Position numbers and translations under genes: made by a program
Notes under the pieces: generated by a model
The model's database searches: none
Seen by the model: only the letters and a program-made list of their open reading frames with translations
What the model was told of the DNA's origin: nothing
Source: Oasisia sp. SBJ-2009
Lineage: Eukaryota > Annelida > Polychaeta > Sabellida > Siboglinidae
DNA: 64,000 bases
NCBI GenBank assembly: GCA_964017155.1
Contig: OZ024856.1
Coordinates: 14,084,125 to 14,148,124, forward strand
Reading direction: 5' to 3'
Shown here: positions 17,566 to 56,600 of the stretch, one piece after another
Position numbering within the stretch: the stretch's first letter is position 1
Layout: each line of letters starts with the position of its first letter

Positions 17566-20500
17566 GTACCGTGTTTTAATCAAAAATAATATTGGATTTT
17601 CTTGCTTGTTGTTGTGAACGATAATATAATTGATTGAGCCTGGAACCTACTCCCCCTAGATTCCAGAGCTGTCAAATTATGGCAGCTGTCAGTCGTGTGC
17701 ATTTCTGCGTATTAATACAGTTGTCATTCTGCTGGGTGATGTAATCAGGGGCAGTCCGTGGGTGGTTCAAGCAGAAATGGAGGGGTGTAAGGCTTGAAAG
17801 AAGTTTATGGTAGGGACCGGCAAACAAAATTCAAAATAGATTTACCACGTTTATGATGGTGCATGTCGATTGTATGTATAATAGATAACAACATACCGTT
17901 TACAGATTTTAAATATCTTTAAGCAGTAAAAGGTTACGGCACATTTAACTTTCCAAATACGGTACCAAATCTGTGACCTCGGCTCTGGCCTGCACAGCGC
18001 GCTGTGTAGCCCACGTTCACTTGCCAATATTAGTGATACGATATTCAAATAAACTTATACATTTTGGATATTAACCACATTAGAAAGATTATATTTTTAG
18101 ATATTTATTCACACGAAAATATCTTTTTGAAATATTATCGTGTTCAAAGATGCAGTTAGATTAGAATCTGATATTAGATTACTCCAAGATGGCCGTCACT
18201 GCATCAGCCCACTCCTGACAATGGGCGGTAAACTCAAAACGATTTAGCTATAATGCGCTACTTGCGAGTTACATGAAATTTTCAGGGTATTCTTACTAAA
18301 TATTCATCTAACTACTATCCAAACTTCAGAAAACTTCCTCCGCGTGCTACGAAGATATAATTACTCGAACATAGCACATATTCGCTCATAAAAATCAAAA
18401 TTAAATAACCCACCTAAAATATTGCAATTCACACGGCCGCATTCTCACTCATTTTGGGTCTCAACCGACCTACCGACGCGCCCCTAGCGGATTTGCCGGT
18501 CCCTATTTATGGGAGGCTGAGGTATGAGAAGTTCACAAATTTTTCACAGAACTTCTGTCTAAACTTCAGGATAAATATGCTGTGAAATTGTCAATAACAG
18601 ATCTCATCAAGATTAGTAGGACATGAAGGAAACGTTATAATGATTAATGGTCGCCTATGGAAAATCCAAATGTGGTCTGACTCCTATGCCCATTCCAACA
18701 AACCCTCAGTACCATCCACCTTGTTGCGGTAAACTTCCAGTTAACTGGCCTAAATTTTTAGGGCCTTTTCAAAACGATGACAATTGAATTTTACTTACTC
18801 AAATTTTAATACTGTTTATCTATTGATTTTACAGTTACTGTGATTTTATATATAATAAATCAAGCCTAGGAATTATTTCATGCTCAGAAAGTGTTATAAC
18901 CCCTATGAGTATAATTTTATGATCTTGGGCTCAGATAGTGCATCTGGGTCTTGGATAGACATGGATGGGAATATTGCAACAAATTGACATCAAATCACGA
19001 ATCTACATTACCTTTTTGTGCTAAAGATGAAACAGTCTTCAAATATTCGTCATTGTTATGAAACACATTATAGACCTTAGATTCCTAGAGTGAATGTTGC
19101 GCAAAATTTAAGTTGAAGAAAAATGGTATACAAAATGTTTACATTATATGAAGAACAACACTACATTGCTTTTCTTGAATCATGACACACCCTAATCTGA
19201 GTTGTTGTTTGCAGCATGGCTGCAAGAACTGTGGCTTTGCCTTCTGTGGGAACTGTCTTCGCGAGAAGATTGCTGTCCCAAAACACAACAATCAAGTACA
19301 CCGTGTCTGTGTAAAATGCTACAAGATACTTTCAGGGTAGGTGACATAATGTCTGTACACCGTGTCTGTGTAAAGTGCTACAAGATACTGTCAGGGTGGG
19401 TGACATAATGTCTGTACACCGTGTGTGTGTAAAGTGCTACAAGATACTGTCAGGGTGGGTGACATAATGTCTGTACACCGTGTCTGTGTAAAGTGCTACA
19501 AGATACTGTCAGGGTGGGTGACATAATGTCTGTACACCGTGTCTGTGTAAAGTGCTACAAGATACTGTCAGGGTAGGTGACATAATGTCTGTACACTGTG
19601 TCTGTGTAAAGTGCTACAAGATACTGTCAGGGTAGGTGAGATAATGTCTGTACACTGTGTCTGTGTAAAGTGCTACAAGATACTTTCAGGGTAGGTGAGA
19701 TAATGTCTGTACACCGTGTCTGTGTAAAGTGCTACAAGATACTTTCAGGGTAGGTGAGATAATGTCTGTACACCGTGTCTGTGTAAAGTGCTACAAGATA
19801 CTTTCAGGGTAGGTGAGATAATGTCTGTACACTGTGTCTGTGTAAAGTGCTACAAGATACTGTCAGGGTAGGTGACATAATGTCTGTACACCGTGTCTGT
19901 GTAAAATGCTACAAGATACTGTCAGGGTAGGTGACATAATGTCTGTACTCCGTGTCTGTGTAAAATGCTACAAGATACTGTCAGGGTGGGTGACATAATG
20001 TCTGTACTCCGTGTGTGTGTAAAATGCTACAAGATACTGTCAGGGTGGGTGACATAATGTCTGTACTCCGTGTCTGTGTAAAATGCTACAAGATACTGTC
20101 AGGGTAGGTGACATAATGTCTGTACTCCGTGTCTGTGTAAAATGCTACAAGATACTGTCAGGGTGGGTGACATAATGTCTGTACTCCGTGTCTGTGTAAA
20201 ATGCTACAAGATACTGTCAGGGTGGGTGACATAATGTCTGTACTCCGTGTCTGTGTAAAGTGCTACAAGATACTGTCAGGGTGGGTGACATAATGTCTGT
20301 ACTCCGTGTCTGTGTAAAATGCTACAAGATACTGTCAGGGTGGGTGACATAATGTCTGTACTCCGTGTCTGTGTAAAGTGCTACAAGATACTGTCAGGGT
20401 GGGTGACATAATGTCTGTACTCCGTGTCTGTGTAAAATGCTACAAGATACTGTCAGGGTGGGTGACATAATGTCTGTACACCGTGTCTGTGTAAAGTGCT

Positions 20501-53600: not shown

Positions 53601-56600
53601 AATAGAATCAATGTTGGTTGTCAGCTGGCGCGGCCTGGCCAGGCTGTCTGTGGTGAACCACCTCGTCTCTGTATAATACTGCAGTCTCTGTCATATCCAC
53701 CATGGAAGCTGGTAGGTGACTTGTGAGTTCATGTATTTGAGGGCTTGTTTATTCACTGCAGTGTTTGTTAATCTACTGCAGGGTTTGTTAATTCACAGCA
53801 GGGTTTGTTAATTCATTGCATTGTTTGTTAATCTGCTGCAGGTTTTGTTAATTCACTGCTGGGTTTGTTAATTCACTACAGGGTTTGTGAATTCACGGCA
53901 GGGTTTGTTAATTCACTGTAGGGTTTCTTAATTCACTACAGGGTTTGTTAAGTCATTGCAGGTTTGATTAATCCACTGTAAGGTTTGTTAATTCACAGCA
54001 CGGTTTGGTAATGCACAGCAGTCAGTTAGTTCACTGCAGGTATGGCTAATCCACTGTCTTTTTTGTTAATTTACTACAGGGTTTGTTTATTTACTCCAGG
54101 TTTGGTTACTTCACTGCTGGGTTTGTTAATCCCCCCCCCCCTCCCCCCCCCCCCCCCGAGGGTTTGTTGATTCACTGCAGTGTGTGTTTATTCACAGCAG
54201 AGTTTGTTAATTTAATTCACTGGAAAGGCCTGTCAACTCTCTGCAGTGTTTGATAATGTCATGTAGGGATTGCTAATTATCTGGAAGGGTTTAGTAAATA
54301 TACTAAATACCCCATAGAGTATGTAAATTCATTACATGTTTATTTGTAGATTCACCACCCTTTGTAGGGTTTGGGATTTCTCAAGGGTCTATAAATCACT
54401 ATTGGAGTTTGTGAGTTCATTATCTGGTGGGTTAGCATCAGAGAATATATTACAGGAAACATTATAGTCGTGCATAATTGTTATTTTATGTATTTTATGT
54501 ACTTTACATAGCAAAGCACCAATTCTAGACACGACTACTGGCATGATTAACGAGTTACTAGTGAGGTCATGGCCCTAAATATAGACTTAACGCTTATATT
54601 AACCCTGTGTAGCACTAGTCACTAACTGGAGCTACACATAGGACTGGTGTGTATAACTGTAAATTGCATATTTACATGTTTCAGATAACGTGTTGACATT
54701 ATCTCAGTAATGAGTTTTATATGGCATATTGTGCCATGAATGATAATGAGATGTGGAAGTGTTGGTTGATGGTTTGTGGATATTAATGTTGATGTACTTT
54801 AGATAGCACATTGTTTTTAGATAGCATGGTGACACTAATTTGTATATGTGTTAGATAGTATATTAACATATTTTAGATGGCATGTCGACATGTAGTAGGC
54901 GTCATATAGACATGTTTTAGACGTCATTATTCATGTGTGCTAGATGACATGTTGACATCATTTTGATGTGGTTTATATGTCATGTTGGTGTATTTCATAT
55001 GTCATGTTGGTGTGTTTCAGATGTCGTGTTGGTGTGTTTCAGACGCCATGTTGGTGTGTTTCAGATGTCATGTTGGTGTGTTTCAGACGTCATGTTGGTG
55101 TGTTTCACACGGCGTGTTGGTGTGTTTCACACGGCATGTTGGTGTGTTTCACACGGCATGTTGGTGTGTTTCAGACGTCATGTTGGTGTGTTTCAGACGG
55201 CATGTTGGTGTGTTTCAGACGCCATGTTGGTGTGTTTCAGACGTCATGTTGGTGTGTTTCAGACGGCATGTTGGTGTGTTTCAGACGGCATGTTGAGCCA
55301 TGAGAACGAGGAGATGAAGGAGCGAGTGATTGCGCTGGAGAAGAAAGTACACGAGCAGGAGGACGAGTTGTTGTGTCTCAAGAGCGCCCTGTCAGACGCC
55401 ATCCGCCGCCTGTCTGCCGTCGAGGCCAACAGACGTACGTATCACAACACAGGGTCGTCATAAACCTGACTGGAATTTATAGATTCACATGGTTTTATGC
55501 CAAGTAGCATTAGAAACGTATACGGAATGTTTGGTGTTGTCAGCTGTCAGAAACACATTTAACCTTAATTACACTTCCAATTCTGGCCCTATAACACACA
55601 CACACACACACACACACACACACACACACACACACACACACACACACACACACACACTCAGACACACACACACACACACTCAGACACACACACACACACA
55701 CACACACACACACACTCAGACACACACACACACACACACACTCAGACACACACACACACACACACACACACACACACACACACACTCAGACACACACACA
55801 CACTCAGACACACACACACACACACACTCAGACACACACACACACACACACACACACACACTCAGACACACACACACACACACACACTCAGACACACACA
55901 CACACACTCAGACACCCACACACACACTCAGACACACACACACACACTCAGACACACACACACACACACTCAGACACACACACACACACACACTCACACA
56001 CACACACACACTCAGACACCCACACACACACTCAGACACACACACACACACACACACACACTCACACACACACACTCAGACACCCACACACACACTCAGA
56101 CACACACACACACACACTCAGACACACACACACACACTCAGACACACACACACACACACACACACACACACACACACTAACATACACACACACACACACA
56201 CACACACACACACTCAGACACACACTCAGACACACACACTCAGACACACACTCAGACACACACACACAGACACACACACACACACACACACACACACACA
56301 CACACACACACACACACACACACACACTCAGACACACACACTCAGACACTCAGACACACACACACACACTCAGACACACACACACACACACACACACACA
56401 CACACACACACACACACACACACACATTATTTTACAGCAGGCATAAGATTAAAATCAATCGTAACTGCCCAACTGTTTAAAGAAACTCGTACGTCTCCTT
56501 ACATAAAAAACTCACCTGGTAAATTAAATTAATGCAATAACAGTACATAGAACATACTGAATAAACAGTAAAACAGTTGTTGTAATAAAAGAAATGTAGA

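Follow-up and report, generated by a model that had tools for sequence, protein, structure and literature searches.

Minisatellites that span exon–intron borders are known from amphioxus, where they have been named mirages; the available excerpts of two reports describe them gene by gene (in Adh3, the globins BflGb6 and BflGb9, troponin C and PGBD5), with regular splicing said to persist and copy number unstable (PMC3087553, PMC3902484). According to the excerpts cited for related systems, a minisatellite in human IFI6 (6-16) supplies splice donors, two downstream repeats being reported as used donors (PMC4526556, citing Turri 1995); introns have been gained by tandem duplication of AGGT segments, as in the Rogers model, ATP2A1 and potato RdRp (PMC4974935); and intron 1 of earthworm metallothionein carries minisatellites (PMC12783039). 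We recognised no report of border-spanning minisatellites in annelids in the literature, judged mostly at the title and abstract level. Here we analyse a stretch of 64,000 nucleotides (the window) from the annelid Oasisia sp. SBJ-2009, in which five minisatellites lie across exon–intron borders of three genes. We consider these arrays probably to be of the mirage type, that is, border-spanning duplications that have expanded into the intron, whose extra copies are passengers and which occur in excess at exon borders.

A first-pass annotation had proposed that five arrays in the window include true exon–intron borders of three genes, and homology to relatives confirms this for all five, the array coordinates being slightly corrected by Tandem Repeats Finder (TRF) (Table 1). 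The borders inside the arrays are three donors (after 19336, after 27432 and, on the minus strand, at 32068) and two acceptors (34590, on the minus strand, and 55285). Each array reaches into the intron and holds exonic bases as well: 41 at 19336, 8 at 27432, 46 at 32068, 40 at 34590 and 11 at 55285. The 59-bp array contains 22 donors of the form AGG/GTRGGT (the slash marks the border), and the 39/48-bp unit is nearly all exonic and joined by CAG/GTGAGT, its array holding 22 copies of CAGGTGAGT and 5 of CGGGTGAGT. The peptide of this latter unit is present once in P0023, a relative of the gene concerned, which suggests that here the array arose from the exon. A GTACACC/GTACTCC microhomology at either end of the 59-bp array, a single case, could have initiated that array; and decayed copies of the 22-bp array go on outward to ~54690, as judged by eye. 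The earlier statement that splice sites are copied dozens of times applies to three of the five arrays and not to the other two, and its remark on units beginning with GT or ending with AG carries no information, since the start point of a tandem unit is arbitrary (GT occurs on the plus strand in 21 of 24 units).

Table 1. Border-spanning arrays and exons of the three array-bearing genes (window coordinates)
Feature	Position	Strand	Evidence
ANCHR/ZFYVE19-like gene A, additional first exon	~17512-17565	+	
Gene A, FYVE-coding exon A2	19215..19336	+	Pfam FYVE 2e-8; tblastn 80% over 44 aa to L. satsuma ANCHR
59-bp minisatellite, 22.1 copies	19296-20597	+	TRF; unit comprises last 41 exonic bases plus donor and 18 intron bases
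Gene A, ANCHR-like exon A9, donor opens 18-bp array	27178..27432	+	77% identity over 88 aa to L. satsuma ANCHR
18-bp minisatellite, 54 copies, stops at 200-N gap	27425-28402	+	TRF
39/48-bp minisatellite, ~30 units	30865-32113	-	Two overlapping TRF rows; unit lengths read out
HLH-type gene B, exon B3	32068..32200	-	91% identity over 45 aa to P0023
Gene B, exon B2, array-free borders	33108..33192	-	Open joined frame; HLH relatives P0021/P0022
Gene B, exon B1	34442..34590	-	67% identity over 46 aa to P0025
~55-63-bp repeat (TRF 63 bp), 3.9 copies, including the acceptor TTTCAG and as many as 40 exonic bases	34551-34782	-	TRF
EML-like gene C, probable first coding exon (MDNGMGEAV), donor without array	40609..40636	+	Resembles L. 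satsuma P0026 start (MDNGMGDAV)
22-bp minisatellite, 15.4 copies, ends 11 nt within exon	54954-55295	+	TRF
Gene C, EML-like coiled-coil exon C2	55285..55434	+	PDB EML2 1.3e-7, EML4 3.5e-7
Gene C, exon C3, array-free borders	58157..58457	+	Continues P0026

The exon models were built from the sequence and then checked against relatives, the closest proteins to the window genes being those of vestimentiferan tubeworms. Eight exons of the ANCHR/ZFYVE19-like gene (gene A), from 19215 to 27432, join into a single open frame of 297 aa with 73–74% identity to tubeworm ANCHR (Lamellibrachia satsuma, 73% over 100% of the query; Ridgeia piscesae, 74% over 87% of the query); at the donor after 27432 homology comes within a few residues, and the exact base is fixed by the GT consensus. 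The three exons of the HLH-type gene (gene B; 34590-34442, 33192-33108 and 32200-32068) likewise give an open joined frame; its HLH match is under the Pfam cut-off and its pieces are matched by relatives, the best-named one from Paralvinella. For the EML-like gene (gene C), the L. satsuma protein P0026 continues across both borders of exon C2, with 87% identity over 82% of the joined query. An alternative first exon of this gene at 35568-35664 has a fitting frame, but the start of P0026 resembles the exon at 40609 instead.

Whether five such placements exceed chance depends on the null model. One alternative to our explanation is that a minisatellite-rich genome simply has some arrays at exon borders, with no special role for splice borders; the 24 arrays of the window occupy about one fifth of it, and minisatellites make up ~21% of the window compared with 11.5% of 200 kb of random stretches. 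The first-pass annotation regarded placement at five of roughly 20 borders as unlikely by chance; the supported borders number 27–28, and plain overlap does not bear the judgement out, with 5 overlaps seen, 3.4 expected and 4190 of 20000 rotations reaching 5 (28 borders, 24 arrays). Nor is there an excess of array edges lying ≤10 nt from a border (1 vs. 0.44 expected). Plain overlap, however, is the wrong null, because an exon would be lost in most such placements. When exon-destroying placements were redrawn, arrays crossing a border by at most one unit numbered 5 against 0.26 expected (0 of 100000 trials reached 5); when each array was given one seed, the expectation was 0.40 (5 of 100000 trials); and array edges lay within one period of a border in 6 cases against 1.2 expected (8 of 20000 rotations). 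Conditioned in this way, the claim of non-random placement stands for crossing by up to one unit. Tandem duplication, taken as a match of at least 20 of 24 bases within 200 bp, is seen at 5 of 27 borders, and the remaining 22 match at only 12–15 of 24 bases, like most random positions outside arrays; 23% of 3000 random window positions lie in duplicated sequence. The candidate exon at 35568-35664 was counted in the overlap/rotation and redraw tests, omitted from the duplication test and replaced in the seed test.

As the window was selected for its look, we sought independent data in the same genome (assembly of 764,102,534 bases in 33 contigs). The sample comprised 78 Myosin_head exon matches, the best candidates being scored, with 300-bp flanks; splice sites were placed by a score trained on the window sites, arrays were called with the same repeat finder, and the matches, 20 of which contain stops, were trimmed before the final counts. 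A border was taken as crossed when an array ran across it with at least 5 exonic bases, and as near when an array edge lay within 16 nt; the latter limit was set after the distances were known, and the crossing count is independent of it. Of the 154 borders found, 119 score at least 3 and the 35 below 3 were left out. An array crosses nine of the 119, at five donors and four acceptors spread over six contigs, repeating what the window shows, namely arrays with exonic and intronic bases inside at both kinds of border, and nine more are near; taking all 154 borders regardless of score gives 10 crossed and 11 near.

Two controls were compared with these counts. Random anchors, drawn from 20 stretches totalling 200 kb on five of the 33 contigs, were crossed in 52 of 3000 cases (1.7%) and near in 32 of 3000 (1.1%; binomial 2.5e-4 for myosin crossing vs. 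random), and pseudo-borders 60–180 bp inside the same introns were crossed in 15 of 595 cases (2.5%) and near in 14 of 595 (2.4%), giving Fisher values of 0.011 for crossing and 2e-4 for crossing plus near. Arrays are thus about three times commoner at borders than at nearby intron positions, and about four times commoner than at random positions. The P values are approximate, because the sample is one family with some close paralogues, 300-bp flanks, random stretches on few contigs, and overlapping slices and pseudo-borders. Untrimmed matches gave 10 of 118 borders crossed (L048 included) and 9 near, with Fisher values against local introns of 0.004 and, at a stricter splice score, 0.034; a seed-model test, applied to the untrimmed borders only, gave 3.7 expected crossings (P 0.002). 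Two of the crossing arrays serve as examples: at L067 an exonic stretch ending GAGCAG or GAACAG is followed by GTGGGTG every 53 bp, and at L073 AGTCAG/GTAGG recurs every 24 bp; in 3 of the 9 (L068, L090 and L106) there are just 2–3 copies.

Several results weigh against an excess at borders, in addition to the plain overlap and edge counts in the window. With the stricter splice score and trimmed matches, crossing at borders does not significantly exceed that in local introns (6/90 vs. 13/450, Fisher 0.079). Around ten FYVE exons of the same genome (20 match ends, 1.5-kb flanks) there were no crossing arrays, and one array lay 19 nt from a match. The donor word CAGGTGAGT occurs 9690 times genome-wide and forms 1884 tandem triples (0.194 per occurrence), compared with 5575 occurrences and 843 triples (0.151 per occurrence) for the reversed word, a ratio of only 1.3, which is little excess; the test scores copies and not arrays, which lets large arrays dominate it, and it does not strongly favour the motif itself as the seed. 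The enrichment at borders predicted by the first-pass annotation is seen in the myosin sample against both controls, is not seen in the FYVE sample and is slight in the word count. Together with the density of minisatellites in random stretches and the choice of the window after the fact, these results keep the chance explanation in play; but the crossing arrays exceed the conditional nulls in the window and both controls in the myosin sample, and we consider chance placement alone unlikely.

A second alternative is that the arrays are kept for a function, providing extra splice sites or in-frame peptide repeats for regulated isoforms in the manner of human IFI6. Unit length is divisible by three at 27432 (18 bp) and at 32068 (39/48 bp), and the units there are open over long stretches; use of distal donors in these two arrays, and only in these, would keep the frame and add in-frame repeats, and 22 copies in the B3 array keep CAGGTGAGT. 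The units themselves, however, show no coding constraint in the 32068, 18-bp and 59-bp arrays. Variants in the 32068 array comprise 15 nonsynonymous and 5 synonymous changes, close to the unconstrained expectation of 72:25, those of the 18-bp array are alike (7:2), and in the 59-bp array variation is similar in the two parts of the unit, at 5 of 41 exonic-part sites and 2 of 18 intronic-part sites. Splice signals are also lost in many copies: among 15 acceptor copies of the 55285 array, 10 have AG, 3 AC and 2 AT, so that AG is lost in 5, and GGTAGGT is kept in 22 of ~54 units at 27432. In the other three arrays distal copies would bring stops or, mostly, frameshifts: any later donor at 19336 would add an in-frame TAG; of the three upstream acceptors at 34590, two would add stops and the remaining one a frameshift; and two of three upstream copies at 55285 shift the frame. 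These observations do not support the earlier suggestion that every copy can serve as a splice site. The extra copies look like passengers, not spare splice sites, and from the amphioxus reports we infer that the exon-proximal site is the one that is probably spliced. A function of this kind is, in our judgement, very unlikely.

It has also been proposed, in the excerpt available for amphioxus mirages, that such repeats are a source of young introns (PMC3087553), and duplication of a border could be the initial stage of an intron arising by tandem duplication as in the Rogers model. We placed the untrimmed myosin borders on the family model and compared intron positions. The array-bearing L067 shares its intron position with the array-free L051, L075 and L084; the array-bearing L092 shares its position with L055, L080, L085, L086, L087 and L093; the array-bearing L090 and L058 share theirs with the array-free L091 and L062, respectively; and that of the array-bearing L079 matches L049 and L050 to within one codon. 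Thus, 5 of the 9 array-crossed myosin borders are at intron positions shared with array-free exons and there do not mark new introns; because the paralogues keep the same positions array-free, several of the myosin arrays are secondary. L092 and L093 are close paralogues in which a 46-bp donor-spanning unit is present in 3.1 copies and, by eye, in under two copies, respectively, which looks like one expansion step at one donor. As to the duplication at AGGT protosplice sites that the first-pass annotation had suggested as a mechanism, AGGT is present in 3 of the 5 border units and absent at both acceptors (34590 and 55285), and is therefore not needed. An origin of these arrays as young introns appears extremely unlikely.

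For mirage-type growth of existing introns we propose the following course: a short duplication across an exon–intron border would be the start; slippage or unequal exchange may then expand it into a tandem array growing into the intron; and only the copy joined to the exon would be needed, the remaining copies being carried as passengers. The excess at borders could be explained by anchoring, which we favour: selection on the exon would keep one unit intact, and this unit would serve as a good template and ensure that the array cannot vanish whole. The main alternative, a mutational hotspot at exon borders, would better explain arrays that end close to the border without reaching it. Anchoring predicts that the youngest units lie beside the exon. 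At 55285 change is indeed smallest in the units nearest the exon (Spearman 0.86), neighbour identity being 0.93 in the proximal half and 0.43 in the distal half. Against anchoring, the 19336 and 27432 arrays show no age gradient along their units, and unit gradients are also present in 3 of 9 arrays away from borders; the fixed 48-bp lag of the gradient test does not fit an array that mixes 39- and 48-bp units, and at 34590 the array is too short for it. As the gradients are inconsistent, we treat anchoring as a hypothesis.

Other features of the window may be mentioned. In the region 28403-30130 a 200-N assembly gap interrupts the 18-bp array, and L. satsuma ANCHR beyond approximately residue 322 has no tblastn match in the window (E up to 1); a misjoin or missing sequence is likely there. 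On the minus strand, a 384-aa stop-to-stop frame runs through much of the donor array of the HLH-type gene (30865-32113), and gene predictors may therefore call this array coding. Long minisatellites also lie in or near the same genes off the supported borders, at 22440-23614, 28603-30130, 37277-39115, 53740-54212, 57022-57314 and 57594-57992. The 84-bp tandem arrays at 6060-6651 and 8249-9721 encode C2H2 zinc fingers on the minus strand (Pfam for 8339-9226) and are ordinary coding repeats. A reverse-transcriptase frame (RVT_1) at 3836-5008, also on the minus strand, probably belongs to a LINE-like element, and two elements at 21224-21350 and 25700-26060, with inverted ends around a CGTTTCGA-CCGTCAGCTACGG motif, look by eye like small non-autonomous transposons.

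A broader reading, which we regard as doubtful although worth stating, is that in this annelid lineage exon borders throughout the genome act as a nursery of minisatellites, where a selection-protected master unit lets arrays accumulate until about one in ten borders carries a satellite of its own junction. If this were true, splice sites would rank among the main sources of both intron length and satellite DNA, and the amphioxus mirages would follow from the same rule. Mirages in a distant phylum, at ~8% of sampled exon borders, would make a measurable process of what has been a curiosity; they link minisatellite birth, intron lengthening and gene-model error, the last because predictors face dozens of near-identical donors or acceptors; and they offer a system for testing directly how splicing tolerates many competing copies.

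In conclusion, the arrays can be set beside the systems described to date, as far as the cited excerpts go. They share long minisatellites within annelid introns with the earthworm metallothionein case, whose excerpt does not mention border-spanning repeats (PMC12783039); they share tandem duplication that copies splice signals with intron gain by the Rogers model, from which they differ in that existing introns are lengthened at their borders and AGGT is unnecessary; and they share with IFI6 a minisatellite at a splice donor with donor signals within the units, whereas use of distal copies would here mostly break the frame. The closest likeness is to the amphioxus mirages, which make the notion of splice sites seeding satellites less novel than the first-pass annotation held (PMC3087553, PMC3902484): in both, repeats of ~10–160 bp lie over donor or acceptor borders and many copies carry AG/GT signals; copy number varies in amphioxus and, here, between the paralogues L092 and L093. 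The arrays described here differ in occurring in an annelid, five within 36 kb and mostly with tens of copies, and in being accompanied by a sample of the genome. The phenomenon is thus known from amphioxus; the estimate of its frequency may be new, and suggests a genome-wide process.

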